A stretch of DNA of 64,000 nucleotides from Collybia mongolica. Taxonomy: Eukaryota; Basidiomycota; Agaricomycetes; Agaricales; Clitocybaceae. Position 1 is the stretch's first letter; each line of letters begins with the position of its first letter. The DNA is taken from positions 310,001 through 374,000 of the forward strand of contig JAAXNY010000011.1 in NCBI GenBank assembly GCA_013420905.1, written 5' to 3'. The position numbers and the translations under genes were made by a program. Below are positions 26,724 to 49,409 of this stretch, piece by piece. Under the pieces are notes generated by a model that saw nothing but the letters and a program-made list of their open reading frames with translations, searched no databases and had not been told where the DNA came from.

Positions 26724-27929
26724 ATGAAGGAGGCTAAGGAACACGCTAGACCTACGACTAGGTCGCGTTCCAAGAGACAGCCAGAGGACCGAAATAAAAA
26801 CAGAAATAGTCGTCAAGAAAGTAATGATTCGGAGAGTAGTCGGGATAGTAGCGAGGAGGAGTTGGTAGCGCCGTCTCCTAGGAAAAAGAAAGTAAAATTT
26901 GTTGAACCATCAGTAAAGTCTCCAGTACGAAAAGAATTACCCTACATCGATGTGCCCGTGGTACCCTACATACCCCGGAGAACGGAACGCAACCCTGAAC
27001 CAGTTGATCCGCTACCTAATTTTAACACTAAGCGCAGTCCGACTTATGAAACTAAGTCCCCGATAGAAGTAAAATTAAAAGGTGGCAATATAATTGCTAA
27101 AGTGTTAGACAACCCTATCACATTGACCACGGGAGAGTTAATGGGCTCGTCAAAAACCATTAGAGATGGGATAAAGAATATTGTAACTGCCAGACGTAAG
27201 TCCCTCACCCAAAGGGACGCTAACTTGCAAATAAACGGAATAGATGAGGAAGACGTCTTACCCTTTGGAGGGGACTGGGAACTTGATGATAACTACTTAC
27301 GGCATGACGCGCTACCAGTAGAGTCAATCCCATTCCAGTCTTTCTTCATCTCGGAGTATGACCGCGGCGGAATACCTAAGGGATCTATAATATGCGGAGA
27401 CCCAGTCCTACAGTATTTAGAATCTTTACCAGCTGGGGAAGAGCCCAAACAGTTGTATGTAGCAAAAGAATCGGCCTCTTTGCGCGCAGTATATCCAGTA
27501 ATAAATGGGGCAGGAACGGAGGAATCTTTATTAGATGGGGGATCCCAAATAGTATCAATGGCTAAACAAACGGCTTTAGACTTAGATATTTCATGGGATC
27601 CGGACGTTGTCATACACATGCAGAGTGCTAATAAACAAGTTGAGAAAACAGCGGGATTAGCGCGCAATGTTCCTTTCTTGTTTAATGACATGGCCATCTA
27701 CCTCCAAGTACATATCATAAATTCACCCGCATACAAAGTATTGCTCGGGAGACCATTTGATACACTCACGGAAAGTCAGATCAAAAATGCTCGGGACGGG
27801 GGACAAGTAGTCACTATCACGGACCCTAACACGGGACGAAGGTGTACTATCCCTACCCATGCAAAGGGATCACCGCCTAAGCTGTTGAAAAGACAACCGG
27901 AGCAGGATTTTCGGCCTTCGATGAATTAA
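26724..27929 (+). CDS. Family A protease protein (pro, A2), 401 aa
   Basis: The C-terminal ~135 residues resemble a retropepsin: LLDGGSQIVSM with the likely catalytic Asp at residue 271, a VHIINSPAYKVLLGRPF segment as the second strand pair, and a C-terminal Gly-rich turn. The active-site triplet is DGG instead of the usual DSG/DTG, so activity is inferred from position and context. The N-terminal ~100 residues are Arg/Ser-rich and charged (KKKVKF). It lies between gag and pol in its own frame, -1 to gag and +1 to pol, a gag-pro-pol plan better known from betaretroviruses such as MMTV than from Ty3/Gypsy. The ATG at 26724 is only needed if translation restarts. Confidence 0.75.
   Translation: MKEAKEHARPTTRSRSKRQPEDRNKNRNSRQESNDSESSRDSSEEELVAPSPRKKKVKFVEPSVKSPVRKELPYIDVPVVPYIPRRTERNPEPVDPLPNFNTKRSPTYETKSPIEVKLKGGNIIAKVLDNPITLTTGELMGSSKTIRDGIKNIVTARRKSLTQRDANLQINGIDEEDVLPFGGDWELDDNYLRHDALPVESIPFQSFFISEYDRGGIPKGSIICGDPVLQYLESLPAGEEPKQLYVAKESASLRAVYPVINGAGTEESLLDGGSQIVSMAKQTALDLDISWDPDVVIHMQSANKQVEKTAGLARNVPFLFNDMAIYLQVHIINSPAYKVLLGRPFDTLTESQIKNARDGGQVVTITDPNTGRRCTIPTHAKGSPPKLLKRQPEQDFRPSMN
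27905..27911 (+). promoter_or_regulatory. -1 frameshift site GGATTTT, pro to pol (A2)
   Basis: Pro frame: caG GAT TTT cgg. The -1 frame reads GGA TTT TCG GCC TTC and stays open into pol with no ATG until 28058. The known MMTV pro/pol site is G GAU UUA, which differs only in the last base (established knowledge). Pro terminates 15 bases downstream. Confidence 0.65.
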
Positions 27930-29922: not shown

Positions 29923-30338
29923 TGTAAGGGCAACTCCGGCGGAGTGCGCGCGAACTTAGTAGAGCGGGCCGACGCTGGTGGAGGGGATCCTAAGAGATGT
30001 ATTCACTTGTACGACATATGTGCTACTCACCTGGTGGAGGGGATCCTAAGAGAATTCTCTGAGGAGCCTCCATCAGGGGGGGTGTGCTATATACCTAGTA
30101 CTACATTAAATACACGTTCCCGGTGCGGTACGACGACACGCGTTGGGTTAGCGAAGGTCACGTGACCGTGCCCTTGATAGTCCGAACAAGTGCGAAGTCT
30201 GGCGGCGAACTGCGCGCGAAGTAGAGAGTGGGGGTGCGTGTGGGCGTAGGTAATGAACGTGCGATGTAGTGAATGTAATGGAGTGAGCGCGAAGTAAGCA
30301 GATCGGCGAAGTAAGGCGGAAATGGAGTTCCCCTTACA
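29923..30338 (-). repeat. 3' LTR of B1 (left side)
   Basis: It is 416 bp. The polypurine tract lies just inside at about 30341-30350 (CCCCCC on the plus strand). The LTR contains two copies of TGGTGGAGGGGATCCTAAGA about 75 bp apart. Confidence 0.95.
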
Positions 30339-30349
30339 TTACCCCCCTT

Positions 30350-33300
30350 CTAGGTTCGCGTGTCTTCACGCCGGCGTTGGAACGGGATCTGTGCGAATTG
30401 GACGCGTTGTACGAGTCGCGGTGCTCCGGGGTTGCGTCTGTAGAATTCGGCGACCAACTCGTCCGCATTCACCTTGTCGGCGGGTTCCCAGGTGTTCTGT
30501 TCGTAGCTGTAGCCCTTCCAGGCGACCAGGTACTGCAGCTTGTTCCTGTAAATCCGGCTGTCCATGATCTCCTGAACCTCATAATGTACCTCGCCGTCTA
30601 TGAGAGTGGGTTCAGGGACTTCGGTGACCGTTCTACCGGGTATTGGGTCGTGCGGCGCGGGTAGGAGTTTGACAACATGGAAGACCGGGTGGATGCGCGA
30701 TAGCGCCGGCGGAAGTTTGAGGCGGTAGGCGTGCGATCCAACCTTGGCTTCGATGGGGTAGGGCCCGATGTAGCGGTGAGCCAGTTTCTGCGACGGTCGA
30801 GTGATACGAATGTCGCGCGAATCCAAATACATCCGGTCTCCAACCTGGTAGTCGGGTGTTGGGTTTCGGCGGCGATTGTAGTACATCGCCATCTCGTCCT
30901 TGGCTTTGGCTAATGCGGCGCGGGCTTCCTCGAGGGTGTCCTTCATTCGGTCACGGAATTCGTTCGCGGTTTCCAGCCGGGATGGTGCGGTCTGTGGTTC
31001 GAAGCCCATGCGTGGATGTCGACCGGTGTCCAGGAAGAACGGCGAGTGCTGTGTCGAGGAGTGGACGTGGTTATTGTACTGGAATTCGGCGAGCGGTAAA
31101 AGGTCGACCCAGTTGTCCTGTCGCTCGCTGATGAATAACCGGAGATACTGTTCCAGTTCCTGGTTCACTCGCTCGGTCTGTCCGTCTGTCTGTGGGTGGT
31201 ACGCCGTAGACGCTGTGAGTTTAATATCAAGCATGCGATATAACTCCCTTGTGAATTCCGCCACGAACTGTACCCCTCGGTCGGAGACCATAGCCTTCGG
31301 TAAGCCGTGCAACTTCCACACATGCTGGAGGTAAAGCCTCGCCGATCCAAGCGCGGTAATTGTCGTCGTGGTTGGGATGAAGTGCGCGCGTTTACCCACC
31401 GTGTCCACCACTACCATGATCGCATCATGCCCTTGCGACTCGGGGAGTTCCACGATGAAATCCACGCTTGCGACGTCCCAGCGACCTTCCGGAATCGGCA
31501 GCGGTTTAAGTTCGCCGCTTGGAAGTTGACGCTGAGCCTTCGTTCGGAGACAGAGGTCGCATGTCTTGCAGTATTCGCTGATGTAGCGCGACATTTGAGG
31601 CCACCAGTAATTGCGCGATACGAGTTCCAACGTCTTCCATCTTCCGGCGTGTCCCGCAATTCGCGAATCGTGATGTTGCGCAACTATACGTCTGCGAAGG
31701 TCAGCGTGTTTTGGGACGTAGATGCGATCGCGGAAATACAGCAACTCCTGCGCTTCCCTCCACTCTGCGCTCCGAACCGATTTTCCTGCGGACTTCTTCA
31801 ACTCCTGCGCTGCCTTCACCACCGCTTCCTCCTGATGTCCCTCGCGATTGCCTCTCCGAATATCCCGCAGAATGTCCCTTTCCTCTCCTTCCACGACCAT
31901 TCCTTCCAGCGCGCGGATTGTGAACAACTCCGGTTTGAGGAGGACTAGATCGCGGTTATCCTCGTTTCCATCGCTGTGGTCCGCTCGGCGAGATAGCGCG
32001 TCTGGCTTACCCATACTTCGTCCGGGCTTGTGGTGCAGCGAGAAGTTGAATCGGGAGAGGTACAGTGACCACCTGGCCTGTCTCCGATTTAGCTTCTGGG
32101 ACGTCCGGAAGTACTCTAGATTTTTGTGGTCTGTCCAGATCTCGAAGTCGTGTCGCGCGCCTTCAAGGAAGTGTCGCCATTCTTCGAGTGCGCGAATGAT
32201 GGCGAGCATTTCCTTGTCGTGTATCTCGTAATTCCGCTCGACCGCGTTGAGGCTCTTTGACGAAAACGCGATCGGGTGCCACTTGTCGTCCTCCGGGCTG
32301 AGTTGCGAAAGTACTGCGCCGGTCGCGAAATCCGAACTATCTGCCTCCACCCTAAACGGCCGGTTGTCGTCTGCGAACATCAGTACTGGTTTAGACGACA
32401 CCGCTTCCTTCAACCCTTCGAATGCCTCCTGCTCCGACTCACCCCACTTCCAAGGCACGTCTTTACCAGTGAGATCAAACAATGGCCGCGCAATATGGGA
32501 GAAGTCGCGAATGAACCGCTGATAGAAGTTCGTGAAGCCCAAGAAGGACTGCACTTGCTTCTTGTTCGTGGGTGTTGGCCATTCCGCTACTCCGGCAACC
32601 TTGACCGGGTCCATCTCCGCCTGCCCCTCCGAGATAATGAGCCCCAGATACTCGATTCGGGTCTTCTCGAATTCGCATTTGTCCAGTTGCAGGTACAGTT
32701 TATGTTCGCGGAGTCGCTGGAGAACTAACCTCGTAATTCGGCGGTGTTCGGCGAGTGTCTTTGTGTAGATTAGAATATCATCGATGTAGACACATACCAC
32801 TCCTTCCATGATGAGATTGTGGAATATCTCGTTCATCATGGTTTGGAACGTTGCCGGCGAGTTAGTGAGACCAAAGAACATTACCAGGGGCTCAAACATT
32901 CCGCGGTTTGTGCGAAATGCGGCCTTCCACTCATCACCTTCCTTAATTCGGACGTTGTTGTATCCCCAGCGAACGTCGAATTTGGAGAAGTATTTCGCTC
33001 CCCGAAGATTATTGACGAGGTCGGAGATGAGTGGGAGTGGGTATTTGTTCTTGATCGTCAGCGAATTGAGAACGCGGTAGTCCTGTACCGGGCGTAGCGA
33101 ACCGTCCTTCTTCTTGATAAAGAAGAACGGCGAAGCCATTGGCGATTTGGAGGGGCGGATCCGACCAGAGGCGAGGTTCTCCTCGAGGAACTTGTCCAAC
33201 TCTGCTTGTTCGGCGACTGAGAGCAGGTAGACCTTGCAGGATTTCCCTTCTGCGTCGCGGACGAGTTCGATCGCGTGGTCCCACGGTCGGCGATCTGGGA

Positions 33301-34300
33301 GAGCGTCGAAGGACGTCTTGGAGAACACATCCTCAAATTCGTGGACGTGCGCCGGTGCTAGATCAAAGAACGTCTTGGGTTGCGCATTACGATCAAAGGA
33401 GTCTGCGATCTGCTGGGACGCGTTCTTCCGGGCTTCTGTTTGGATCTTTTCCGCTAGTCGCTGCGAGATGGTTTGGGTTGTCCGAATCTCTTCCGGTGCC
33501 TTCTGAAACTGTCCTGGTTCGCCGATGTTGACCACGAAGATACGGTCGCCCTCTTCGATGCAATCTTCAAGGGCGATATCTCCTTCGTGCTCAGAGTCGG
33601 GAACCTCTCCAATTTCTGTTTCTGGTTCGGGCATGGGTCCTGCGCGACAGGCGTTGATGCGGGCCTCCAATTTACGCTTCTCCGCCTTTTCCGATTTAAC
33701 CTCGTTCGCGCAGGTCCGACATTTGTCGGGACAGCGACTCATCTTCACCTCGTTGGTCTGCCAGTTGATCTCCGGGTTGTGCTCCTGCAACCAAGTGTAG
33801 CCCAGTATGAGATCCTGCTTCCCTAGGCTGGTGACTGCGAAGTGGGTGCGTTCTGAGTGACCGTTGTACCGGAGGATGAGGTCTACGATCTCCGAAATAG
33901 ACCCGTTCTCGTTCGGAGTGCCGTCGACGTTGAACACCGGAATAGTGCGAACTAGCTTGCGCGAGGTCAACCTGTTCCTCCGCACGAATTCAGAATCGAT
34001 GAAAAGGCCCGTTGCTCCCGAGTCTACCAAGCTGTTCGTCGCGAATGTCTCGCCTGTGTCGGTCGTCTGAAGTTCAATCTTGAGCTTCAGCGAGCGAGTG
34101 CTGGGGGTGGCGGCGACTACGAATCGCTTGGGTAGAGCTCGTTCCCATCGGGGGAGTCTCTGGCGCGGCGGTTTAGGGACGGGGATGGTATCTTGTACGG
34201 CTTCTGTAGTAGTTTCGGGTGTTTGGGAAATTTCAATTGTGTTCTCAACTTCTAAACACGCGAACCTATTTACAGATGACAGCGAGGGCGTACTGTTCAC
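30350..34300 (-). CDS. pol: B1 Pol: protease, RT, RNase H, integrase, chromodomain (1316 codons)
   Basis: Domains in order: retropepsin (LVDSGATG, Asp 93); reverse transcriptase with YIDD at 505-508; RNase H with D654, E697, D724 and D767; integrase zinc finger (HH876-877, H884, C914, C917); integrase core D947, D1007 and E1043 (DDX35E); and a C-terminal chromodomain (YLVAWKGYSYEQNTWEP), which in chromoviruses steers integration to marked chromatin. The frame has no ATG at its start. It begins at GTG overlapping the gag TGA and is open upstream to the heptamer at 34315, so Gag-Pol is probably made by -1 frameshifting. It is full length and unbroken. Confidence 0.97.
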   Translation of the reverse strand: MNSTPSLSSVNRFACLEVENTIEISQTPETTTEAVQDTIPVPKPPRQRLPRWERALPKRFVVAATPSTRSLKLKIELQTTDTGETFATNSLVDSGATGLFIDSEFVRRNRLTSRKLVRTIPVFNVDGTPNENGSISEIVDLILRYNGHSERTHFAVTSLGKQDLILGYTWLQEHNPEINWQTNEVKMSRCPDKCRTCANEVKSEKAEKRKLEARINACRAGPMPEPETEIGEVPDSEHEGDIALEDCIEEGDRIFVVNIGEPGQFQKAPEEIRTTQTISQRLAEKIQTEARKNASQQIADSFDRNAQPKTFFDLAPAHVHEFEDVFSKTSFDALPDRRPWDHAIELVRDAEGKSCKVYLLSVAEQAELDKFLEENLASGRIRPSKSPMASPFFFIKKKDGSLRPVQDYRVLNSLTIKNKYPLPLISDLVNNLRGAKYFSKFDVRWGYNNVRIKEGDEWKAAFRTNRGMFEPLVMFFGLTNSPATFQTMMNEIFHNLIMEGVVCVYIDDILIYTKTLAEHRRITRLVLQRLREHKLYLQLDKCEFEKTRIEYLGLIISEGQAEMDPVKVAGVAEWPTPTNKKQVQSFLGFTNFYQRFIRDFSHIARPLFDLTGKDVPWKWGESEQEAFEGLKEAVSSKPVLMFADDNRPFRVEADSSDFATGAVLSQLSPEDDKWHPIAFSSKSLNAVERNYEIHDKEMLAIIRALEEWRHFLEGARHDFEIWTDHKNLEYFRTSQKLNRRQARWSLYLSRFNFSLHHKPGRSMGKPDALSRRADHSDGNEDNRDLVLLKPELFTIRALEGMVVEGEERDILRDIRRGNREGHQEEAVVKAAQELKKSAGKSVRSAEWREAQELLYFRDRIYVPKHADLRRRIVAQHHDSRIAGHAGRWKTLELVSRNYWWPQMSRYISEYCKTCDLCLRTKAQRQLPSGELKPLPIPEGRWDVASVDFIVELPESQGHDAIMVVVDTVGKRAHFIPTTTTITALGSARLYLQHVWKLHGLPKAMVSDRGVQFVAEFTRELYRMLDIKLTASTAYHPQTDGQTERVNQELEQYLRLFISERQDNWVDLLPLAEFQYNNHVHSSTQHSPFFLDTGRHPRMGFEPQTAPSRLETANEFRDRMKDTLEEARAALAKAKDEMAMYYNRRRNPTPDYQVGDRMYLDSRDIRITRPSQKLAHRYIGPYPIEAKVGSHAYRLKLPPALSRIHPVFHVVKLLPAPHDPIPGRTVTEVPEPTLIDGEVHYEVQEIMDSRIYRNKLQYLVAWKGYSYEQNTWEPADKVNADELVAEFYRRNPGAPRLVQRVQFAQIPFQRRREDTRT

Positions 34301-35460
34301 TCGCTGTCCGCTACAAAACCCTCTTCTTCCGCCGGCGGTTCGACTCGTGCGTCTATCATCGCGAAGATGTGCTGCGCGAACTCATGCTGCTCCTCCATTG
34401 ACATGAACCGCGTGTCGTAGCGGAGGGGGCAGTCCTTCCGGAAATGGCCCGGCTGCTTACATCGGTGGCAGGTCTCGATGTTCGTTCGAGCCCTCCGCAT
34501 CGCGTCTACATCCATCGGAACTGGTGGAGGGAGAGCAGGGGGCGGCGGAGGTGGTGGTGGCGCCATCCGTTGCAGCGTCGGGGCTGAGAAGTGCGGCGGT
34601 GCGCGAAACGCCGAGGTAGTGCGTGCGGGAGGTGCGCGAGCCGCCGGTTTAGTGCTCAGGAAGGCCTCGTTGGTGAGGCGGTTTTCATCGCACTTCATCG
34701 CCGCTACATACCACTGTTCCGGCTGATCGTCCGCTGGTCGTCCCACTGCCATCGTCGCGATCTGCGACTGAATCTCCCCGCTCAGTCCCTTCCGGTACTT
34801 CACCACAATCGTCAACCCCTCCTTGTATCCCGACTTGTCGATGAGATCCCTGAACTCATCCGTGTAGTCGTCCACCGATCGCGATCCTTGGTGGTAGCTG
34901 CTCGTTTCCAACCTCGTAATCGCCCGCTGCGCTTCGCTCTGCACGAAGAAGTTGACCGCGAAGTCGGCGCGGAATAGGGTCCATGTCGCGTACTTCGGGT
35001 TCCCGGTAGCGGTCTGGTATCGCATGGCCCGGTCCGCAAACAGATACGCTCGGCCTTTCTTCATGAAGGTGTACGCCCACCGTACCTGAGTCACTTCATC
35101 CGCGAACTGGTGTGGTACAAGATTTATATACAGTTCGCATGCGTTAATGAACGCACGCCCTCGTTCGCGCGATCCGTCGAAGTCATCGGGAAGCGATGGC
35201 CGGAGTGCCGAAGGTCGTCCCGAATTAACGTGGGTCGCGGGGGGAGGTGTTGATACATTATTTACAGGGGCGCTGGGTGCAGGGGTATTGACCGGGGGTG
35301 GGGGAGCCGCGGTTTGGAGCGCGATCAGCGCGTTGATGCTGTCGGTGAGCTTCTTAAGCTGCTCGGCTTGTTCCTCCGCCTTCCTATTGAGATCTCCTAC
35401 GTCTCGTTCGACGTTATCCATCCTTGTTTCGGTGTCCATCGGCCGGAGTAGGAGTTCCAC
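34297..35460 (-). CDS. gag: B1 Gag, 387 aa
   Basis: The N-terminus is a coiled-coil-like region (MDNVERDVGDLNRKAEEQ), followed by a Pro-rich linker. The Ty3/Gypsy capsid-type core spans about 115-255 (FADRAMRYQTATGNPKYATW, YTDEFRDLIDKSGY). The zinc knuckle CHRCKQPGHFRKDC (CX2CX4HX4C) is near residue 343. The tail is acidic. The first ATG, at 35460, is used; another follows eight codons on. It overlaps pol by four bases in the -1 frame. Confidence 0.93.
   Translation of the reverse strand: MELLLRPMDTETRMDNVERDVGDLNRKAEEQAEQLKKLTDSINALIALQTAAPPPPVNTPAPSAPVNNVSTPPPATHVNSGRPSALRPSLPDDFDGSRERGRAFINACELYINLVPHQFADEVTQVRWAYTFMKKGRAYLFADRAMRYQTATGNPKYATWTLFRADFAVNFFVQSEAQRAITRLETSSYHQGSRSVDDYTDEFRDLIDKSGYKEGLTIVVKYRKGLSGEIQSQIATMAVGRPADDQPEQWYVAAMKCDENRLTNEAFLSTKPAARAPPARTTSAFRAPPHFSAPTLQRMAPPPPPPPPALPPPVPMDVDAMRRARTNIETCHRCKQPGHFRKDCPLRYDTRFMSMEEQHEFAQHIFAMIDARVEPPAEEEGFVADSE
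34315..34321 (-). promoter_or_regulatory. -1 frameshift site GGGTTTT, gag to pol (B1)
   Basis: In the gag frame it is gaG GGT TTT gta, 15 bases before the stop codon. The -1 product across the junction (GFCSGQRVNST) matches that of B2 ([11 protein letters not shown]) in pattern, as expected if this stretch is translated. Confidence 0.65.
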
Positions 35461-35599
35461 TTCTAGTTCGGAGGAGGGTGGAGAGGGCGATTCTCGCGCG
35501 GTCTTGACGGATTCTGTATCGGAGCTGACAGTTTCTGCCGATCGGAATTTGGCAATGGCTGCGGTGAGGTCGCGGTCTCTGCTGGTGAGAGAATTCTAC

Positions 35600-36015
35600 T
35601 GTAAGGGCAACTCCGGCGGAGTGCGCGCGAACTTAGTAGAGCGGGCCGACGCTGGTGGAGGGGATCCTAAGAGATGTATTCACTTGTACGACATATGTGC
35701 TATTCACCTGGTGGAGGGGATCCTAAGAGAATTCTCTGAGGAGCCTCCATCAGGGGGGGTGTGCTATATACCTAGTACTACATTAAATACACGTTCCCGG
35801 TGCGGTACGACGACACACGTTGGGTTAGCGAAGGTCACGTGACCGTGCCCTTGATAGTCCGAACAAGTGCGAAGTCCGGCGGCGAACTGCGCGCGAAGTA
35901 GAGAGTGGGGGTGCGTGTGGGCGTAGGTAATGAACGTGCGATGTAGTGAATGTAATGGAGTGAGCGCGAAGTAAGCAGATCGGCAAAGTAAGGCGGAAAT
36001 GGAGTTCCCCTTACA
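35600..36015 (-). repeat. 5' LTR of B1 (right side)
   Basis: It is 416 bp. On the minus strand it has a TATATA box and then AGAGAATTCTCT about 30 bases on. The sequence just inside the LTR is GTAGAATTCTCTCACC, which repeats that palindrome (see the finding on self-priming). Confidence 0.95.
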
Positions 36016-36020
36016 CTAGG

Positions 36021-38022
36021 ACCTAATGCAACGGTAAATAGGTGGATTGATAGGATACTTATGTTCCACTTTACTCTGGTTCATAAAGCTGGTAAAGGCT
36101 TTGGCCCAGATGGTCTGTCAAGACGAGACGCGCGGCTAGGGGATCCTGTCTACCCGGACCCAGACGATGGTTACGACGAACCCTCAGGTCCTTTAAGGTT
36201 TATCAACCCAACGGAAGGATTGGATGACCCTTTGGAGCTGTCAGATTTTAAAGAGGAGATCGACACGCGCGGCGGATATTTATTCCAACTTGCGAAGGAA
36301 ATCTCTGATTTTGAAGTTGAAGTAAACAATGCCTGGGCTGGTGAAGCAGCATTTATTGGAGAAGTAAAACAGCACTTAGGTTTAGGACGGTTCGGTATTC
36401 AAAGAGAAGCTTATCTAAAGCAACTTGTAAATACTACTGTCATACCTGATGAAAAGTTTAAATATGACCCTAATGTAAGGGAAGTATATGACAAGTCTAA
36501 ACGAACACCTACGGCGCAGGAACAGGATAAAAACCTACCTTTAATAAAAGAATGGTTAAAAAGACCACAAAAGAGACCAAAAGGAATGACGGATCGCGCC
36601 TACCTAAAGTTTGCAAGGCAGGCGTCTAATTTCTTTTTGGATCCAGAAGGCAGGATGTATAGGAAAAATATTGATAGCGCGCACCAGCTTGTTGTTGATA
36701 AAAATCACCGGACATATATGATGAAGGCGTCTCACGATTCTGTTGGACATAGGGGTTTCTATGCAACAAAATCCTTAATAGATAAAAGATTTTGGTGGCC
36801 AGAAATGGAACGCGATGTATCATGGTATGTGAAGTCATGTCACATCTGTCAGACAAGGCTCTTAACTTTGTTGAGAATCCCTCCTGTCATAACCCACACG
36901 CTGTCTATATTCCAAGTATTGCATGCGGACACCATGTATATGAGCCCATCGTCTAACGGTTATAAATACATTGTCCAAGGAAGATGTGTGCTGTCTTCGT
37001 GGATGGAAGGCGCGCCCCTCAAATCTGAGGATGGCAAGACCTTGGGAAGGTGGCTGTTTGAAGAAGTAATTTGTAGATGGGGTTCCCTAACGGAAATTGT
37101 AACGGATAATGGTCCTGCCTTTGTCGCAGCCAAAGCGTGGCTGGAATCCAAGTATGGTATTACAGGAATAAGTATATCACCATACAATTCCAAAGGAAAT
37201 GGGATCGCCGAGCGCGCACATTGGGATGTGCGTCAAGCTGTCTTCAAAGCTACAGGTGGTGATGTAAAGAAGTGGTACTACTTCTTCCACCATGTAATGT
37301 GGGCTGACAGAATTACTATATGGAAAGGGACGGGTTGCTCCCCCTATTTTATGATTACGGGCACGCACCCAACCTTACTGTTAGATATTATCGAAGCCAC
37401 TTGGTTAGTAAAGTTACCAGGAAAAATATTGACTACAGAGGAACTCATTGGATTTAGAGCGCAGGCTCTAGCTAAGCACGTCCAGCATGTGGCCGATATG
37501 AGGAAACGTATCAATATAGAAAAACAAAGGAGACTATTACAGTATGAGAAGGATCACCGCGCAACCATCAGAGACTATGATTTCAAACCAGGAAGTTTAG
37601 TACTAGTTAGAAATACCGAGGTCGAAAGTTCGCTCGATAAAAAGCTGAAGCCACGGTACCTGGGACCAATGATAGTCCTTAGACGAAACCGCGGGGGAGC
37701 CTATATTGTTTGCGAAATGGATGGATCGGTGTGGCAACATAAAGTGGGGGCGTTTAGGGTTATTCCCTATTTTGCTAGGAGTACAATTGAACTGCCAGAT
37801 AATCTGCAAGATCTAATAGACATCTCTAGCAAAACACTAAATGCTTTAGTGGAATCGAAAGATCCCGCTAATAGGCAAGTTTACAAGGAGCGTGACTATA
37901 CATTTGACAGAGTCCAATTGGATCAGTCCGATTCAGAGTCAAGCTCTAGTGAGAACACTGAGGAGGGGATAGCGCCGGCGCTACCACAAACTACTGTGTC
38001 ACACCGGAAGTTGCATAGGTGA
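36021..38022 (+). pseudogene. pol: A2 pol, 3' part: RNase H end and integrase (interrupted by B1)
   Basis: The frame continues in phase from 29922. It has the end of RNase H ([15 protein letters not shown]), the integrase zinc finger (HDSVGHRGF...CHICQTR) and the catalytic core with Asp in LHADTMYM, Asp in VTDNGPAF and Glu in [14 protein letters not shown]-like stretch ([17 protein letters not shown]) follows. No chromodomain is seen. It ends at TGA 38020-38022, 146 bp before the convergent stop of the antisense gene. Confidence 0.92.
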
Positions 38023-38168
38023 TAAATCAGTATGGAAACAGAAGCAGTAAAGACAGTATAAGCAACTAAGCGAAGTAGTAAGGACAGTGTTAAGCCGAGT
38101 AAAGACAGTAATACAAAGGAGCGTGGGGAGGGACACCATAACTCAGGAGGAAGTTAATTGGACTGTCC

Positions 38169-39551
38169 TCAAGCAGATATGAAGTCGTCTTCAACCTCGG
38201 GCAAGGGCAAGTCAGCCGGAGCTACCTCCTCCTTATCATTGTCATCCTGGTCATGGACTTCCGTAGCGCTTGCAGTGGCAGCCTCGTCAGAGCCTCCCTC
38301 CAGAGCGGCCTCGTTCATTAGACCATTGAGGCGAGTAACCTCATCCATAGTGGCATCACGACGCTTCAATAAGAAGGACACTGTATGACTGATCTCCTCC
38401 AACTCAGCGCGGTAGTTTAAAAGCATCCTACCGAGGGCTTGCTTGGTGTGCGACATGGGATTGCCCGCGTCTGCAATCAAGCGCGCCCGCGCTAAGACTA
38501 CATCGTGCTCCTTGGAGGGACGGAAGTCAATAAAGACACGAGTATCTGATGCACAGTCGGTATAAATTTAGGACCATCTATTATTAGAAAACGTACCCTC
38601 AGCAGATACCTTTGGATCTTCATCCGGGGTGTCTTGCCTCGTACGCTTTTTGGGACGAAGAGTGCTGCCGCGATTGAGCTCGGAACGCTTGCCGTCCTGT
38701 AGGAATAAGAAACAAAGTAATAAACAGAGCAAAAACAAGAATGGGTACCTTGATGGCAGCCTTTTCAGCCTTAGTCCTTTTGACACGGGGAACCTTAATG
38801 TTCTCCTTCTCCTTGCGGCTACAGGTGATTGGTCCTTCACTAAGGAGACGACTAGTCACTGATCCAGAGACAGTAGCACTAGCTGTAGCGCCGGAATCAA
38901 TGACCATATTCTTGAGTAAAGAAGAGACGCCATTGAGTATGTCGCACACTGACAGCGCGGTAGCTAAAAAGAAACATACCGAGTCAGTACCAGACATTTC
39001 AATGTCACCATCATATTCACCGCCAGCAATGACCTCGCCTGGAATAGTGGTACCATCCGCTTCACCACCAGTAGCAGGGACCTAGTACCAGAAAACCATG
39101 GTTTAAAGAGCAGTACAGTACGAGATGAGGTAAAAAGCACGCACCGCGGTTTGAGACAGGTGCTCAGTGCGGACCTTTTCACGGTGACGGTGAATAGCGG
39201 CAGTCAGAGTCACAATATTACGGTAAACAGGCTCTTGAAGTAACTCGGGGTATACATGTTGTAGTCCCTGGAATGCCTTACGGACGCCAAAAATAACATT
39301 CTGCCAGGACCGCTCCGTCAAAACCAATTTGGACTCAGTCAGGAGTAGCTGTAAATTGTAAAACCTGGTTACAAAAACGGCGTTTTAAAAAGTGTAATTG
39401 GTAAAAAGTGTACCGCGGTTTCGCCTAACTTCCGGACGCTGACCCTTTGTTCAACAAGGGTGTCCATCGATAAACGAGCTTGAAAGGTGTGCCACTGAGC
39501 TTGGACCATCTTGAAGTTCTCGATGTCTTGATAGTTGGGGGGGCTAGTCAT
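38169..39551 (-). CDS. Antisense gene 2 of A2 (383 aa, 5 exons), function unknown
   Basis: Exons on the minus strand: 39551-39414, 39348-39145, 39081-38749, 38696-38597 and 38545-38169, joined through four GT-AG introns of 51-66 bp in correct phase (1152 nt with stop). The protein starts MTSPPNYQDIENFKMVQAQ. A helical N-terminal half includes RSWQNVIFGVRKAFQGLQHV. The middle is basic (PRVKRTKAEKAA), with a second basic patch (RPKKRTRQ) that looks like a nuclear localisation signal. The C-terminus is acidic (HDQDDNDKEEV). I do not recognise the family. It converges with pol. A copy in A1 (45386-46764) keeps every exon, splice site and frame. Confidence 0.7.
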
Positions 39552-40245
39552 AATAATGCAGAGGAAATTGATTCTTCGAACCAGAACGTTGTAAAGAGAG
39601 TATAATAGAGTCGGGCGATGTCTTGGGACAAAAAGCACAGCCAGTGCCCTTTTTATACCTCTACGACTAGAGAAGCGCTACCCAGTCTCTCATTCGTTGC
39701 GCGCATTCTATCCCCAGAAAAATCTATACATTTCAACTGAACAGGTCCGAGACGCGTGCCTAATTGAAATGCTGGGCCCAATTGAAAAAGGAGCTCCGTA
39801 AAAATTCATGTGGAGCGCGGCAGTGTCCGCATGACAACTGGGACAGTTGTTGTCAGTGTTGAGGGGGAGATGGGTATAAGCAAAATCGATTTGGAAAAAC
39901 CTACCAAGGTTACAAGGATTGAAATAGATTGTCTATAAAAAGTCAGTGATCGCACCATGGTCTTAATGATCGAGAGAATTGCACCAGAATTAAACTGTAC
40001 TATTTATAACTTAAGTAGCCGGTGCAAGGGCGGAAGCTTTCTTATGAAGACAATAGAACAACGGGTAAACCAATTGTATTGTTTATAGTCCAGGGGACTG
40101 TATGTAGAAACATGTGTTGGACTTCAATTAATAAAATTGAAGCCCAACGAAAGGCGGGGGAATAAGTAATATGTAAGGGCACAGGGGCCCGGGAAAACAC
40201 AAGTAGATAAAAAAAAAAAAATATAGGGGGGGGGGCGCGGCGCGG
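39552..40245 (-). other. Spacer between the two antisense genes, with promoter of gene 2
   Basis: It holds the likely promoter of antisense gene 2 (next entry). Near 40210-40240, just past the stop of gene 1 on the minus strand, are C and T homopolymer runs. Nothing else is seen, and the A1 copy is alike. Confidence 0.5.
39651..39658 (-). promoter_or_regulatory. TATA box of antisense gene 2
   Basis: On the minus strand GGTATAAAAAGGGC stands about 100 bases before the ATG at 39551. The same box is present in A1 at about 46861-46868. Confidence 0.6.
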
Positions 40246-42192
40246 CTACTCCTCCTCGCTGTCAGGCACGGACGAAGAGGAACTTGACGACAAAGAACCG
40301 TCATCAACCTCTGCTTCTTCCTCCAAGGGCGGCCAAGGGAGGTTCTGGAAATCTGCGTAGAAGAGGAGAGCGCTCTCCGTGGCTGGCGTAGTCAGCAAGA
40401 GGTTTTGAAGGCCCTCCAGGCCTTCCTCCTCGTACAACTTACCGATGGTGCCAACTATGCGCGCCAACAAGGAGTTGCGCATTTCAAGCGCGCGGTTAGC
40501 GGCCTGAATGACCTCCGCGGCAAGAGAGTCCGCGTCGCCTAGCTGAGCATAGGCTTCAGCAACCGCTAGTAGAATAAGTAAAATCATTAGTAAACAAAAA
40601 GACAGAAAGAAAATGGCTTACTAGAAATGCCCGCACCAAGCATCGGCCCCAGATCCTCACGAAGCCTAGCGCGCTTCTGGGGAGTGAGGCTGAAGCTGCA
40701 CTTCCCCTTCTTGGCGGTGGCGCATTCAACGCACGGTTTACCCCAACCGTTGAAGGTGCACTCAATGTCGCCGCGGGTGGCGCACATCGTGCAAGGATAG
40801 CCCACCTAGTAAAAAAAATGATCAGTAACAAGAAATAAAGTAGTAATAAACATACGGAAGAGCGCCGCGGCGCAAGGTCAGCCAGCAGGGAGGTAATAGG
40901 GGACTGTAGCGGCGTCAGCTCCCGGTTGGGAACCAGCGCGTGCTTGCGGCGTGTCGCCTGAGCCCTATCCCTAGAACGGGTGGTCTTACGCGACTGACGA
41001 GGAGAAGGGGCCACAGGAGGCAACAACTCCGCGAACCCCTCTTGAGCCAACTGGCGTGCGATCTCATCATCGAAGAGCCGAAGCTCAGGGACTTCAACCT
41101 TCACCGGCGGCTGCCCAGAGGACTAAGGAGATAAAGATGAGTAAACGTAAATGACTTCAGAAAGAGACATACCGGGCCTGCTTCTGAGGGACGCAGCGCG
41201 GAAGCACTGCCAGTCCCCTGGGCGCGCGACATGTCAGACTAGAATTTTGAAATCAAGTCAGCAATAATGTGAAACTCGTAAAGTAAAGGATATACCTGGG
41301 GAACCGCATGGCCTTTTCCCTTGGACCCAGCATTACGCTTCCGCTTGAGGGGCTATTAAAATAAGTCAACCACCGAAGGAAAGTAATAAAAAGCAGTGAT
41401 AAACGAACCGCAGGTACCAAGACCGGGGAGCGCGCCGGCAAGGGCGCGGCGGACCAATTGTCCCGGTACTGATGGTAACGGCGCGGTGCGCCCACCATGC
41501 GAGGAGGGACGAGGAAAGTATCCTGAAAGATACTTTCACCATTGTCGCGCTCGAAGCGCGACCCCACCTGGTCCAGGACTTGCTCCACAGTGGGAGCCTG
41601 GCCCTAAAGTAAAAGGTAGTCAGCTTGACAAGGGCAGGCAGAGTAAAGAAGTAAACAAGTCACTTACCAGAAGAATGGAATTGTGGCCCAGGTCAGTCGA
41701 TATGACCGTGCGCCAGGAAGACCACGAAGCCTCACGCGCGTCGACAGGGATGCGCATCACTTGAAGGTGAAGCGCGCGCAGGAGGAGGATAGCCGGATAT
41801 GGCAGCGAGAAACGCGCGCCACGGACCACGCCAGTGATGGCATCCTGAGACCAGTAAATAAGTAAAAGGAGTTAACAAGTAAAAGATGGGCATACGATGA
41901 GCATGGAGCAGTGATCGACAAAGTCGATCAAGTCATCAAGGTCAAGGGGACCTTGGTGGTCCATACGGGGCGCGAGCTCCTCGGCCATGATAATCCACCC
42001 TTGCTCCATAGCGACGAAGACGTCGCCCTCGGCATCTTCGAGGAGGTCCGAGAAGGAAGGGATCGGCTGGTCCACATAGACCATGGTGGGGGAACGGCCC
42101 TCAGTCGGCAGAATCGTGGCAGAAAGCGAGAGGGACAGCGCGGAAGGCGAGCGCAGAGCACGAGCCATGGCGGAAGTGGAAGTGGAAGACAT
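40246..42192 (-). CDS. Antisense gene 1 of A2 (520 aa, 8 exons), Zn2Cys6-like nuclear protein
   Basis: Exons on the minus strand: 42192-41896, 41844-41668, 41603-41409, 41352-41296, 41238-41173, 41122-40856, 40805-40622 and 40565-40246. All introns are 50-64 bp GT-AG and in phase (1563 nt with stop). The small fourth exon encodes PLKRKRNAGSKGKG (224-237), a likely nuclear localisation signal. Residues 358-389 hold six cysteines spaced CX2CX7CX8CX2CX7C, close to the fungal Zn2Cys6 DNA-binding cluster. The last 30 residues are acidic and Ser-rich (PPLEEEAEVDDG). A DNA-binding regulator is the natural guess, but the cluster is internal and atypically spaced. The A1 copy is at 47453-49409. Confidence 0.75.
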
Positions 42193-42644
42193 TTCTGTTT
42201 GAAAAGAGTTGGAGCGTTTGAGCAATGCAGATAGCAAAGAGATTTAGAAATGGGCTATAAAGTCCAAATTGTCTAAAACTTAGCAAGGACGCGAGCTTTT
42301 TAAAACGCACAACCCTGCTTTGCGAAGCTCTGAAAGACAAACAGGAGTACCGATCTCTTGCTGAAGTGTCAGAAACATAACGAGAAAAATGTCCAGATGA
42401 CTGAAATATCTGTAAAGCGATGTCCGAATGTCAAGTACTCTCTCAGAAGACGTATATAGCTGTCACGATCCTGATGGGAAGTAAAACCTCTGGGCTCGAT
42501 CCCAACATCGCGCGCCTACCTGTCTAAAAGCGGAACCGTTGTAACATTGTACTGAAAGATTAGACGCGTGCAGACCCAAAGTATTGGACCAACATGCCGG
42601 CAAAGAGAGACTGAGGACAGTCTACATTTGTGGTATGGGGGAGA
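42193..42644. other. Promoter side of antisense gene 1, and polypurine tract of A2
   Basis: Minus-strand TATA-like candidates lie at about 42297-42308 (TTTTAAAAAGC) and 42251-42264. On the plus strand the polypurine tract GGGGGAGA (42637-42644) abuts the 3' LTR and would prime plus-strand DNA synthesis. No gene is seen. Confidence 0.5.
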
Positions 42645-45081
42645 TGATAGGGCCCGAAATTGTTTGCACTTATAAAGTCGACAAGTAAGGCTATTAGTGT
42701 CATTTCTAATAACCAAGTAAGCAGTAATAAAGGATTAGAGTCGAGCTCCAAGACGGCTAATCAGAGTGAACTAGTCTAATGGATAATACACTATCAGTAC
42801 AGAGGACTATGAGTACGGTCTATTATTAGTCCTATTCACCATGCCCGGTTACAACCTCGGTGTCTTAGTTCATAAGTAACCGTTGTAGTATGATATCATT
42901 AGTCCGGGGATCATCATTAATAGGAGAAGTAATTGTAAATTCGGGACTTGCACAACCCAATCCTAGTCAGGGGTACTTGGTGTTAACTACCGGAAGCGAC
43001 GGGACACCATGAATAACAACAGGGACAATCAGGGGGAGTAAACGACAGTGCCGCTGAAAGGGGGCTCCTGGGCTATAAGTGCGCTGATGCTATGAAATGT
43101 AATCCCTTACACACACACACCAAACTTAACAATCAACACACGAACAGTAGGAATCGCCTGTTTTGAGTTCGGGTTCAAGTGCTTAGAAGCACTAAGCTTT
43201 GAATAGTACTAGCCAAAGCCCTTTTCAATGATCTCCCAACGGGTTTGATTCAGACAAAAGCTTCAACACAGGTTTATAAACCTGCTAGGTATATTTATAA
43301 TATTTCTCGATCCAATAGACTGGGTACCAAGTGTACGTTCAATTATTAATGATCCCAAACGGATCTGTAAGTCCAAGCGACTTATCAAACAATACAGTGC
43401 CAAGTGCACTAAGGCCAAGTGCCTAGTAATTCCAACGGACAATACGATACTAAGTTCCAAGTGAACTAAGTCTCTTTAATTCTGTAGTTCTTCAATCAAT
43501 TCCAATCAAGACACGTTGAAGCAATCTGATCCTTAATTCGGGCACGCAATAGTGTTTTTAACAAATGTGATTTGTATACTCTATAGTAGCGCGAAGTGGG
43601 GGCAAGATTCCTTACCTTAGCGCTACTCATCTACAGTCTATTTATAATGTACAAACTAAATATCATATGGAATTGTAAATTTTACACGGAACTGCGCTCC
43701 CGCGCGCCAAGAATCTGTATTCAATACTGACGCGTCTACTACAACTTGGCGCGCACGCCATGCGTGCCAATTATGTCGTTTACTGGTTACTTATCAAATA
43801 TTGAAAGAGCTGGCTAAACTCTTATCAAGTCCCGACCGCGCGCTCTGTTATTTAAAACAGCGCGGCACTGTCGTTTACTCCTCCTGATTGTCCCGGTTGC
43901 TATTCACGGTGTCCCGTCACTTCCGGTAGTTAACACCAAGTACCCCTGACTAGGATCGGGTTGTGCAAGTCCCGAATTTACAATTACTTCTCCTATTAAT
44001 GATGATCCCCGGACTAATGATATCATACTACAACGGTTACTTATGAACTAAGACACCGAGGTTGTAACCGGGCATGGTGAATAGGACTAATAATAGACCG
44101 TACTCATAGTCCTCTGTACTGATAGTGTATTATTCATTAGACTAGTTCACTCTGATTAGCCGTCTCGGAGCTCGACTCTAATCCTTTATTACCGCTTACT
44201 TGGTTATTAGAAATGACACTAATAGCCTTACTTGTTGACTTTATAAGTGCAAACAATTTCGGGCCCTATCACCGCGCTGTTTTAAATAACAAAGCGCGCG
44301 GTCGGGACTTGATAAGAGTTTAGCCCGCTCTTTCAATATTTGATAAGTAACCAGTAAACGACATAATTGGCACGCGTGGCGCGCGCGCCAAGCTGTAGTA
44401 GACGCGTTGGTATTGAATACAGATCCTTGGCGCGCGGGAGCGCGGTTCCGTGTAAAATTTACAATTCCGTATGATATTTAGTTTGTACATTATAAATAGA
44501 CTGTAGATGAGTAGCGCTAAGGTAAGGAATCTTGCCCCCACTTCGCGCGACTATAGAGTATACAAATCACATTTGTTAAAACACTATTGCGTGCCCGAAT
44601 TAAGGATCAGATTGCTTCAACGTGTCTTGATTGGAATTGATTGGAGAACCACAGAATTAAAGAAACTTAGTTCACTTGGAACTTAGTACCGTATTGTCCG
44701 TTGGAATTACTAGGCACTTGGCCTTAGTGCACTTGGCACTGTATTGTTTGATAAGTCGCTTGGACTTATAGATCCGCTTGGGATCACTAATAATTGAACG
44801 TACACTTGGTACTCAGTCTATTGGATCGAGAGATATTATAAATATACCTAGCAGGTTTTTGAACCTGTGTTGAAGCTTTTGTCTAAATCGAACCCGTCGA
44901 GAGATCATTGAAAAGGGCTTTGGCTAGTACTATTCAAAGCTTAGTGCTTCTAAGCACTTGAACCCGAACTCAAAACAGGCGATTCCTACTGTTCGTGTGT
45001 TGATTGTTAGGTTTGGTGTGTGTGTGAGAGAGATTACATTTCATAGCATCAGCGCACTTATAGCCCAGGAGCCCCCTTTCA
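42645..45081 (+). repeat. 3' LTR of A2, split by a reversed solo LTR
   Basis: The pieces 42645-43054 and 44276-45081 together make 1216 bp, the same length as the 5' LTR. The split is at CCGC in GTGCCGCGCTG, and CCGC is repeated at 44272-44275. Confidence 0.93.
43055..44271 (-). repeat. Solo LTR of family A, reverse orientation
   Basis: It is 1217 bp, reading TGAAAGGGGG...CCCTATCA on the plus strand, with CCGC duplications at 43051-43054 and 44272-44275. It has no internal region, so it is the product of LTR-LTR recombination. Because it lies inside an LTR of opposite orientation it makes long inverted repeats. Confidence 0.93.
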
Positions 45082-45206
45082 CCGCTAATAGACAAGTTTA
45101 CAAGGAGTGTGACTATACTTTTGATAGAGTCCAATTAGATCAGTCCAATTCAGAATCAAGTTCTAGTGAGAAGACTGAGGAGGGGATAGCTCTGGCGCTA
45201 CCATGA
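45082..45206 (+). pseudogene. A1 pol, last codons (after A2)
   Basis: It starts with the right CCGC copy and continues as [16 protein letters not shown], matching the A2 Pol C-terminus. It ends at TGA 45204-45206, some 15 codons earlier than A2. Confidence 0.85.
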
Positions 45207-45385
45207 ACTACTAAGTCACACCGGAAGTTGCATTGGTGATAAATCAGTATGGAAACAAAAGCAGTAAAGACAGTATAAGCAATGAAGCTAAGCAGTAAGG
45301 ACAGTGTTAAGCTGAGTAAAGACAGTAGTACAAAGGAGCGTGGAGAGGGACACCATAACTAAGGAGGAAGTTAATTGGACTGCCC

Positions 45386-46764
45386 TCAAGCAGATATGAA
45401 GTCGTCTTCAACCTCGGGCAAGGTCACGTCAGCCGGAGCTACCTCCTCCTTGTCATTGTCATCCTGGTCATGGACTTCGGTAGTGCTCACAGTGGCAGCC
45501 TCATCAGAGCCTCCCTCCAGAGCGGCCTCGTTCATTAGACCATTAAGGCAAGTGACTTTGTCCATAGTGGTGTCACAATGCTTCAATAAGAAGGACACTG
45601 TATGACTGATCTCCTCCAACTCAGGGCAGTAGTTTAAAAGCATCCTACCGAGGGCTTGCTTGGTGTGTGACATGGGATCACCCACGTCAGCAATCAAGCA
45701 TGCCTGCGCTAAGACTACATCATGCTCCTTGGAGGGACGGAAGTCAATAAAGACGTGAGTATCTTGTACACAGTCAGTATAAAATTAGAATCATCTATTA
45801 TTAGAAAACGTACCCTCCGCAGATGCCTTTGGATCTTCATCCGGGGTGTCCTGCCTTGTACGCTTTTTGGGACAAAGAGTGCTGCCGCAATTGAGCTCGG
45901 AACGTTTACCGTCCTGTAAGAATAAGAAACGAAGTAATAGACAGAGTAAAAACAAGAACAGGTACCTTGATGGCAGCCTTTTCAGCCTTAGTCCTTTTGA
46001 CGCGGGGAACCTTAATGTTCTCCTTCTCTTTTTGACTACGGGTGATTGGTCCTTCACTGAGGAGATGACTAGTTGCTGGTCCAGAGACAGCAGCACTGGC
46101 TGTAGCGCTGGAATCAATGACCATGTTCTTGAGTAAAGAAGAGATGCCATTGAGTATGTCATGCACTGACAGCACGGTAGCTAAAAAGAAACATACCAAG
46201 TCAGTACCAGACATTTCAATGTCGCCATCATATTCACCACCAGCAATGACCTCGCCTGGAATAACAGTACCATCCGTGTTGCCACCAGTAGCAGGGACCT
46301 AGTACCAGAATACCATAGTTTAAGGACAGTAAAGTACAAGATAAGGTAAAAAGCAAGCACCGCGGTTTGAGAGAGGTGCTCAGTGCAGACCTTTTCACAG
46401 TGACAGTGAATAGTGGCAGTAAGAGTCACAATGTTATGGTAGACGGGCTCTTGAAGTAACTCGGGGTATACATGTTGTAGTCCCTGGAATGCCTTACAGA
46501 CGCCAAAGATAACATTCTGCCAGGACCACTCTGTCAAAACCATTTTGGATTCAGTCAGGAGTAACTGTAAAATGTAAAAGTTGGTTATGATAATGGCATT
46601 AAAGGTTTAATTGGTAAAAAGTGTACTGCGGTTTTGCCTAACTTCCAGACACTGACCCTTTGTTCAACAAGGGTGTCCATTGATAAACAAGCTTGAAAGG
46701 TGTTCCACTGAGCTTGGACCATCTTGAAGTTCTTGATGTCTTGATAGTTGGGGAGGCTAGTCAT
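45386..46764 (-). CDS. Antisense gene 2 of A1 (older copy, still open)
   Basis: All five exons of the A2 gene can be followed (first exon 46764-46627, stop at 45386), with the same phases and GT-AG ends. The final acceptor reads ACAAG instead of ATCAG. I found no stop codon in the joined frame. Many Arg codons have become Cys, His or Trp through CpG transitions (for example LNCGSTLCPKK). Expression is unknown. Confidence 0.6.
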
Positions 46765-47452
46765 AATAATGCAGAGGAAATTGGTTTTTTGAAACAGAAC
46801 GTTGTAAAGAGAGTATAATAGAGTCTGGCGATGTCTTTGGAAAAATAGCGCGGCCAATGCCCTTTTTATACCTCTACAACTAGGAAAGTGCTACCCAGCC
46901 TCTCATTTGTTGCGCGCGTTCTACCCCAGAAAAATCTGCACATTTCAATTGAACAGGTCCGAGACGCATGCCTAATTGAAATGCTGAGCCCAATTGAAAA
47001 AGGAGCTCCATAAAAATTCATGTGGAGCACGGCAGTGTCCGCATGACAACTGGGACAGTTGTATTCAGTGTTGAAGGGGAGATGGGTATAAGCAAAATTA
47101 ATTTGGAAAAACCTACTGAGGTTACAAGGATTGAAATAAATTGTCTATAAAAAGTCAGTGATTGCGCCACAGTCTTAATGATTGAGAGAATTGCACCAGA
47201 ATTAAACTGTACTATTTATAACTTAAGTAGCTGGTGCAAGGGTGGAAGCTTTCTTATGAAAACAATAGAACAACAGTAAAACCAATTGTATTGTTTATAG
47301 TCCGGGGGACTGTATGTAAAGATATGTGTTAGACTTCAATAAAAAATTGAAGCCCAACAAAAGGCGGGGGAATAAGTAAGACGTAAATAAGGGCACTAGG
47401 GCCTGGGAAAACACAGGTAGATAAAAACATAGATGGGGGGGGCACGGCGCAG

Positions 47453-49409
47453 CTACTCCTCGCTATCAGGCATGGACGAAGAGGAGGTTGATGATGAAGA
47501 ACCATCATCAACCTCTGATTTGTCCTCCAAGGGCGGCCAAGGGAGGTTCTGAAACTCTGCGTAGAAGAGGAGAGCGCTCCCCGTGGTTGGCGTAGTCAGC
47601 AAGAGGTTTTGAAGGCCCTCCAGGCCTTCCTCCTCATATAACCTACCAATGGTGCCGACTATGCCCGCCAACAAGGAGTTGCGCATTTCAGGTGCGCAGT
47701 TAGCAGCCTGAATAACCTCCGTGGCAAGAGTGTCTGTGTCGTCCAGCTGAGCATATGCTTCAGCAACCGCTAGTAGAATAAATAAAATCATCAGTAAACA
47801 AAAAGACAGAAAGAAAATGGCTTACTGGAAATGCCTGCACCAAGCATAGGCCCCAGATCCTCCCGGAGCCTAGTGCGCTTCTGGGGAGTGAGACTGAAGC
47901 TACACTTCCCCTTCTTGGCAGTAGCACATTCAATACACGGTTTACCCCAACCATTGAAGGAGCACTCAATGTCGCCGCGGGTGGCACACATCGTGCAAGG
48001 ATAGCCAACCTAGTAGGAATGATCAGTAACAAGAAATAAAGTAGTGATAAACATACGGTAGAGCACCGAGGCACAAGGTCAGCCAGCAGGGATGTAATAG
48101 GAGACCATAGCGGTGTAGGCTCCCAGTTGGGAACCAGCGCATGCTTACAGCGTGTCGCCTGAACCCTATCCCTAGAACAAGTGGTCTTACGCGATCAACA
48201 AGGAGAAAGGGCCGCAGGAGGCAACAACTCTGCGAATCCCTCTTGAGCCAGCTGGCGCGTGATCTCTTGATCAAAGAGCCGAAGCTCAGGGACCTCAACC
48301 TTAACCGGCGGCTGCCCAGAGGACTAAAAAGATAAAAATAAGTACAAGTAAATGGGTTTTAAAATAGAAAGGAGACATATGGGACCTGCCTCCGTGGGAC
48401 GCAGTGCAGAATCACTGCCAGCCCCCCAGGCACGTGACACGTCAGACTAGAATTTTGAAATCAAGTCAGGAATAATGTAAAACTCTTGTAGTAAAGGATT
48501 GTATACCTGGGGAACCGAGCAGCCTTTGCCCTTGGACCCAGCATTACGCTTCCTCTTAAGGGGCTATTGAAATAAGTCAACAACAGAAGAAAAGTAATAA
48601 AAGTAGTGATTGACAAACCGCGGGTACCAAAACCAGGGAGCGCGCAGGCAAGGGCGCAGTGGACCAACTGTCCTGGTACTGATGGTAACAGCGCGGTGCA
48701 CCAACCATGCAAGGGGGGACGAGGAAAGTATCTTGGAAGATACTGTCACCGTTGTCGCACTTGTAGCGCAACCCTACCTGGTCCGAAACTTGCTCCACCG
48801 TGGGAGCCTGACCCTAAAGTAAAAAGTAATCAGTATGACAAGGACAGAGTAAAAGGAGTAAACATAAGCCATTCACCAAAAGAATGGAATTGTTTCCGAG
48901 GTCAGCTGATATGACCATATGCCAGGAAGACCATGAGGCTTTGTGCATTTCAACTGGGAGGTGCATCACCTGAAGGTGAAGCGTGCACAGAAGGAGAATG
49001 GCCAGGTATGGCAGCAAAAAGCGCATGCCACGGACCACGCCAGTGATTGCATCCTGAGACCAGTAAATAAGTAATTTAGTAAAAGGTTTTAACAAGAAAA
49101 AGATGGGCGTACAATGAGCAAGGAGCAGTGATCAATGAAGTCAATTAAATCATCAAGGTCAAGGGGCCCCTGATGGTCCATACGGGGCGCGAGCTCCTCA
49201 GCCATAATGATCCACCCTTGCTCCATGGCAATGAAGACGTCGCCCTCGGCATCTTCAAGGAGATCAGAAAACAAAGGGATGGGCTGGTCCACATAGACCA
49301 AAGCAGGGGAACAGCCCTCAGTCAGTAAAATCATGTTGGAGAGCGAAAGGGACAGCGCGGAAGGCGAGCACAGAGCACAAGCCATGGCAGAAGTGGAAGT
49401 AGAAGACAT
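47453..49409 (-). pseudogene. Antisense gene 1 of A1 (older copy, one stop)
   Basis: The eight-exon layout is kept, including PLKRKRNAGSKGKG and all six cysteines of the cluster (CTMCATRGDIEC...CIECATAKKGKC). The sixth exon carries a TGA at 48195-48197, where A2 has Gln; a lost Arg CGA in the A1 lineage would explain it. Otherwise the changes are mostly CpG transitions. Confidence 0.65.

Follow-up and report, generated by a model that had tools for sequence, protein, structure and literature searches.

An antisense gene in a fungal retrotransposon has a precedent in brtn, which was reportedly described in the element Boty by Zhao in 2011. Boty belongs to Botrytis cinerea, and its antisense gene is cited in later sources (PMC7264820, PMC8365987, PMC4227169). 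In plants, antisense open reading frames (ORFs) are described for Retand, Grande (gene23) and RIRE2 (PMC7264820, PMC11963269), where the main text on these ORFs leaves introns unmentioned, and the gene23 protein of Grande is given as nuclear, with a promoter of its own (PMC7264820). Among retroviruses, hbz of human T-cell leukemia virus type 1 (HTLV-1) and aph of HTLV-2 to 4 are described as spliced minus-strand genes whose product, mostly nuclear, acts on transcription of the sense strand (PMC10186651). A 2020 review gives the function of antisense genes in long terminal repeat (LTR) elements as not known (PMC7264820). Here we describe a cassette of two intron-rich genes, g1 and g2, on the minus strand of A2, a plus-strand Ty3/Gypsy element of the mushroom Collybia mongolica. 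The window, that is the whole stretch of DNA analyzed, is 64,000 nucleotides long (contig JAAXNY010000011.1, positions 310,001 to 374,000, assembly GCA_013420905.1; 46.0 Mb in 26 contigs), and all coordinates are those of the window. We are highly confident that g1 and g2 are real genes and under selection.

The cassette lies between pol and the 3' LTR of A2. A preliminary description made from the letters of the window had placed two multi-exon minus-strand genes here, of five and eight exons, and both its exon counts and the outer ends (38169 and 42192) proved exact. The features of the cassette are:

38169 to 39551, minus strand: g1, 5 exons, 383 amino acids
39551-39414, 39348-39145, 39081-38749, 38696-38597 and 38545-38169, minus strand: exons of g1
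39349 to 39413, minus strand: g1 intron 1, 65 bp
39144-39082, 38748-38697 and 38596-38546, minus strand: g1 introns 2-4
40246 to 42192, minus strand: g2, 8 exons, 520 amino acids
42192-41896, 41844-41668, 41603-41409 and 41352-41296, minus strand: g2 exons 1-4
41238-41173, 41122-40856, 40805-40622 and 40565-40246, minus strand: g2 exons 5-8
41845 to 41895, minus strand: g2 intron 1, 51 bp
41667-41604, 41408-41353, 41295-41239, 41172-41123, 40855-40806 and 40621-40566, minus strand: g2 introns 2-7
39552 to 40245, no strand: spacer between g2 and g1, presumed site of the g1 promoter
39650 to 39657, minus strand: TATA box TATAAAAA, about 100 bp upstream of the g1 start codon
42193 to 42644, no strand: stretch from g2 to the 3' LTR, presumed g2 promoter
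40698 to 40793, minus strand: candidate zinc-binding motif CX2CX7CX8CX2CX7C in g2 exon 7
about 45385 to 49405 (approximate ends), minus strand: cassette of A1, with g1 open and one in-frame stop in g2

As the preliminary description had it, the introns are GT-AG and in phase. This holds for all 11 introns of the A2 cassette, which measure 50-65 bp, and the phase is 0 throughout except for the last intron of each gene, which is in phase 1. The coding parts of g1 and g2 have a G+C content of 0.52 and 0.61, respectively, as compared to 0.36 and 0.32 in their introns. At third codon positions the G+C content (GC3) of g2 is 0.69, as compared to 0.37-0.42 in the gag-pol frames. A six-exon form of g1, with an additional GT-AG intron at 38979-38911 that also leaves the frame open, is less likely, because a relative from Collybia nuda retains part of this segment as protein.

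The cassette is repeated across the genome, and also the claim that A1 carries it was confirmed. As a DNA query the A2 cassette gave at least 42 matches (39 of 152 candidates scored) and the A1 cassette at least 37 (36 of 161 scored), and exon 2 of the C. nuda relative matched 106 places, 105 of them strongly (E 1.8e-22 or better) and one as a fragment. We aligned 48 near-full cassettes, made up of 46 of the 59 fetched loci together with A2 and A1; two duplicates (L001 and L019) and 11 partial copies were excluded. An uninterrupted frame from start to stop codon was present for g1 in 43 of the 48 sequences and for g2 in 40. GT-AG pairs were kept at 520 of 528 intron positions (g1 191/192, g2 329/336), that is in 48, 48, 47 and 48 sequences for g1 introns 1-4 and in 47, 48, 48, 48, 46, 44 and 48 for g2 introns 1-7. 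When 47 copies were compared with A2, insertions and deletions (indels) amounted to 18 events in 2715 bp of exon, 271 in 615 bp of intron and 225 in 694 bp of spacer, although such events are not independent, because the copies share ancestry, and four introns had few or none.

Selection on the two proteins was evident also at the codon level. The pooled ratio of nonsynonymous to synonymous differences (pN/pS) over all pairs was 0.285 for g1 and 0.244 for g2, and between A2 and A1 the corresponding ratio of substitution rates (dN/dS) was 0.306 and 0.200, well below 1 and to be compared with 0.075 in the gag part, 0.232 in the next frame, 0.178 in the reverse transcriptase part and 0.165 in the integrase part. 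Hence, g1 and g2 are under purifying selection, roughly like gag-pol. Variants seen in a single copy were spread nearly evenly over the codon positions, whereas shared variants concentrated at the third. Leaving out variants present in two copies, 31 of 88 single-copy variants in g1 were silent vs. 72 of 142 in at least three copies (Fisher p 0.029), and in g2 71 of 179 vs. 192 of 336 (Fisher p 0.0002). Single-copy variants are thus less often silent than shared ones, from which it follows that selection is at work in the multiplying lineages. Relative to the full set of possible changes, the single-copy variants still leaned towards silent ones (p 0.016 and 0.00003), which may in part come from transition and CpG mutation bias. 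Since the frames have been kept readable by selection across dozens of copies, the element appears to need g1 and g2.

The cassette also has a fixed place in the element. Gene order was scored in eight loci with 1.5-kb flanks, A2 included, and in 20 further loci (L040-L059). The end of pol, g1, g2 and the LTR start were collinear and in one direction in seven of the eight; the exception, L003, lacks the sequence in front of g2 and has an inverted LTR next to g2 (positions 1-1500 of L003). Among the 20, the LTR start was found beyond g2 in 19, the exception (L059) being an incomplete sequence, so that the position is the same in 26 of 28 loci reaching the LTR region. A counterpart of 42193 to 42644 was present beyond g2 in 27 of the 28, one of which (L059) has it partially. 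At the position of the g1 TATA box TATAAAA is conserved in all 48 aligned sequences. No canonical TATA was noticed upstream of g2. The six-cysteine motif of g2 exon 7 is kept in 38 of 40 intact g2 copies.

Outside this genome g1 has a relative, hypothetical protein BDZ94DRAFT_1234893 of C. nuda (Agaricales), which is 63% identical over the whole length and in register with g1 at the exon junctions. It was the sole g1 relative found in a protein search with 7993 candidates scored (about 8000 were scored in each protein search). Distant relatives within the genome were one fragment and two old copies. The fragment (L060, 73% DNA identity) spans the first exon of g1 and a portion of the second, and it keeps the reading frame, the TATA box and GT-AG around a 61-bp first intron of different sequence; the two old copies (L061 and L062) are decayed.

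How can so many introns survive in a retroelement? They would persist if new insertions are copied from plus-strand RNA, in which minus-strand splice signals are not read. This argument, put forward in the preliminary description, fits the data. Every intron was retained in all 48 sequences, and although lengths vary (60 to 71 for g1 intron 1) zero was never reached. Furthermore, a search of the genome for exon-exon junctions, one per gene with up to three mismatches, gave no places, although diverged intron-less copies could escape such a junction pattern. As a positive control, the exon-intron junction at the same place in g2 was found in 70 places (g2 only). The cassette thereby illustrates a route for a retroelement to keep intron-rich genes through reverse transcription.

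We lean towards the reading that g1 and g2 serve the Ty3/Gypsy element as functional accessory genes, whose proteins most likely regulate the element in the nucleus. In this scheme, which we infer from sequence features, both genes would be transcribed from promoters on the minus strand. That of g1 would be the TATA promoter in the spacer, and that of g2 would lie between the g2 start and the 3' LTR. The host would splice both transcripts, and the two translated proteins would act in the nucleus on the element, either on sense transcription or on silencing, perhaps much as the antisense genes of some retroviruses do. Both proteins have basic clusters (KRKR, RPKKR) and acidic ends, as read by eye, which would fit nuclear proteins.

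Several results weigh against this regulatory role. For g2, the protein searches gave no relative from outside this genome, whether the query was g2 alone or a three-copy alignment without the low-complexity ends. Pfam gave no family for g1 or g2 (E up to 1), and with the limit set to 10 the C. nuda protein had two chance-level matches and the exon-7 piece of g2 none. A search of PDB by sequence gave no relative of the C. nuda protein, and for g2 six chance-level matches, all to one enzyme (best E 0.83). The predicted structure of the C. nuda protein, made with the window exons, had a predicted local distance difference test score (pLDDT) of 41 and was unusable. No short word was enriched above simulation in the non-coding parts of A2, and therefore the search revealed no site at which a self-regulator might bind. 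Finally, between A2 and L006 the dN/dS of g1 was 0.92, on as few as 12 changes.

The word AGACGCGT occurs once each at 24071 (in the LTR), 39752 (before g1) and 42564 (before g2). Among copies with data, 47 of 55 retain ACGCGT upstream of g1 and 21 of 26 upstream of g2. As a shared signal AGACGCGT was rejected, as in the simulation three occurrences of a word of 8 letters do not exceed chance, and it is a lead only.

Family A, the family of A2, inserts at a 4-bp site centred on CpG. In the window, all three insertions of family A have the repeat CCGC at their ends, once in the decayed form CTGC, and the target repeat of A2 is at 23531-23534 and 45082-45085. Genome-wide, patterns for the LTR ends found 202 downstream and 138 upstream flanks, of which 100 each were listed; a perfect end was required, and T after or A before it was forbidden to exclude internal junctions. 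Positions 2-3 of the 4-bp repeat were CG, TG or CA in all 200 listed flanks (downstream and upstream, respectively: CG 63 and 73, TG 20 and 12, CA 17 and 15), as compared to 0 to 32% for the three together at other flank offsets. For 19 solo LTRs both ends were listed. The repeats were identical in 13, two of which lie within an inverted duplicate and one of which is CCAT without CG, and of the remaining six, five differ by CpG-type transitions only and one by another base. In a second LTR family used as control, the first six offsets had CG, TG or CA in 3 to 14 of 54 cases, and CG itself in at most 2. CpG-type transitions also dominate the differences from A2 in close copies (28 of 30 in L002, 34 of 49 in L006 and 38 of 66 in L008, within 38100-42300), and in A1-type copies CpG is about half as frequent as in A2, which suggests CpG methylation of the element. 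Literature searches gave no recognised paper on CpG-centred targets in fungi. The likeness we noted is to the ZAM subgroup of Drosophila errantiviruses, with a palindromic target containing CpG (PMC5408687) and, as listed for ZAM, a 4-bp repeat (PMC3276498). This subgroup favours CGCG, whereas family A fixes the central CpG only, and antisense genes are not among the features described for it (PMC5408687).

Zinc-cluster proteins often bind CGG triplets, and g2 carries a six-cysteine motif. Together with the fixed CG, TG or CA at the listed family-A flanks, and with close copies that differ from A2 largely as methylated DNA would, this gives some room for another role, in which the g1 and g2 proteins serve integration or chromatin and g2 helps to steer new copies to CpG or counters CpG methylation. 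We consider this unlikely, as integrases alone can be selective, the CGCG preference of the ZAM subgroup being an example (PMC5408687), and no finding here ties g2 to the target. CpG targeting is a property of the element, and its connection to g1 or g2 is putative. The Zn2Cys6 fungal zinc cluster is PF00172, with CX2CX6C as its first half; the exon-7 spacing is CX2CX7CX8CX2CX7C, and it gave no PF00172 match, nor any other Pfam match, at E up to 10. That the cassette is a two-protein CpG-handling module, which both finds CpG insertion sites and protects CpG-rich DNA from methylation silencing, seems to us quite improbable; if true, the element would itself carry a reader for the mark that the host uses in silencing.

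The preliminary description had suggested captured host genes. Short spliceosomal introns would agree with genes recently captured by the element and carried without use, and the GC3 of g2 (0.69 vs. 0.37-0.42 in gag-pol) suggests a different origin. We give this very little weight, as there is purifying selection across lineages, g1 exon 2 has 105 strong matches, there is a relative in another species, and no host copy or relative was found in the searches made. Equally hard to credit is that the antisense transcript alone matters, for instance as double-stranded RNA, and the proteins do not. Antisense RNA may act alone in other elements (PMC7264820), but this would leave the kept frames, the indel contrast between exons and introns and the low pN/pS unexplained. 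A chance origin of frames and splice signals, conceivable for gene models derived from one sequence, we regard as refuted by the 48 sequences, the annotated relative in another species and the selection.

The element around the cassette is made up as follows:

23535 to 45081, plus strand: A2, Ty3/Gypsy element
23535 to 24750, plus strand: 5' LTR of A2
24859 to 29922, plus strand: gag and front part of pol, interrupted at 29923 by a nested element
35992 to 38022, plus strand: integrase end of pol
42645 to 43054, then 44272 to 45081, plus strand: 3' LTR, split by an inverted solo LTR

A2 is about 14.2 kb long, as the preliminary description had stated, once the nested element (29923-36016) and the inverted solo LTR with its 4-bp repeat (43055-44271) are excluded; the figure is arithmetic on coordinates. 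Its LTRs start with TG and end with CA. In the gag and front pol part (24859 to 29922) Pfam gave RNase H above cut-off and a zinc knuckle just under it, and at 35992 to 38022 Integrase_H2C2 above and rve just under cut-off. RVT_1 was below cut-off in A1 (E 0.00066) and unlisted for A2. With LTRs present and RNase H preceding integrase in both A1 and A2 (Pfam), the element is of Ty3/Gypsy type; it is not placed among the chromoviruses, as no Chromo match was found in A2 at 35992-38019 (Pfam). From the pol stop (38022) to the 3' LTR (42645), the plus strand had no ORF of at least 150 amino acids. In the gap between pol and g1, at 38046-38110, a 13-bp direct repeat (AGTAAAGACAGTA) occurs in three copies, one of them 85% alike. 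The nested element is on the minus strand and of Gypsy/chromovirus type, with an apparent 5-bp target repeat, CTAGG, and a chromodomain within 30353-34381 (Pfam). The inverted solo LTR in the 3' LTR belongs to family A and has the target repeat CCGC. Elsewhere in the window, 3560-5172 and 14037-15649 form a 1613-bp inverted repeat of 100% identity with ORFs of 344 and 171 amino acids.

Taken together, g1 and g2 have the features of the aORF-3R class, being antisense to pol, located between pol and the 3' LTR and kept in most copies, and their conservation (dN/dS 0.31 and 0.20, vs. 0.08-0.23 in gag-pol, A2 vs. A1) agrees with this. Antisense genes in this position are already described in plants and in Boty. 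What our literature searches did not find for fungal elements is an antisense cassette that is spliced or holds more than one gene, such as the two-gene form with 11 introns here. The preliminary description knew of no such cassette in a fungal element, which stands for the spliced two-gene form but not for an antisense gene as such, given brtn of Boty (PMC7264820, PMC8365987). Boty is likewise a fungal Gypsy element whose extra gene lies antisense in the stretch from pol to the 3' LTR; it differs in its ascomycete host, in the single antisense gene named and in the chromodomain of Boty-like gag-pol, whereas Pfam reported none in A2. Retand, Grande and RIRE2 share with A2 an antisense coding region in the stretch from pol to the 3' LTR, but most Retand clusters have a TRP28 domain, whereas g1 and g2 are without Pfam match, PF04195 included (E up to 1). 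Family A offers about 100 copies, two intron-rich genes under clear selection and a relative from a named mushroom species, so that it becomes possible to test in a fungus what antisense genes do. By description hbz and aph of HTLV resemble g1 and g2 as spliced minus-strand genes at the 3' end, and differ in that the 3' LTR holds the promoter and each virus has a single antisense gene. By analogy, these spliced antisense regulators and the nuclear gene23 of Grande may be the nearest working models for g1 and g2.

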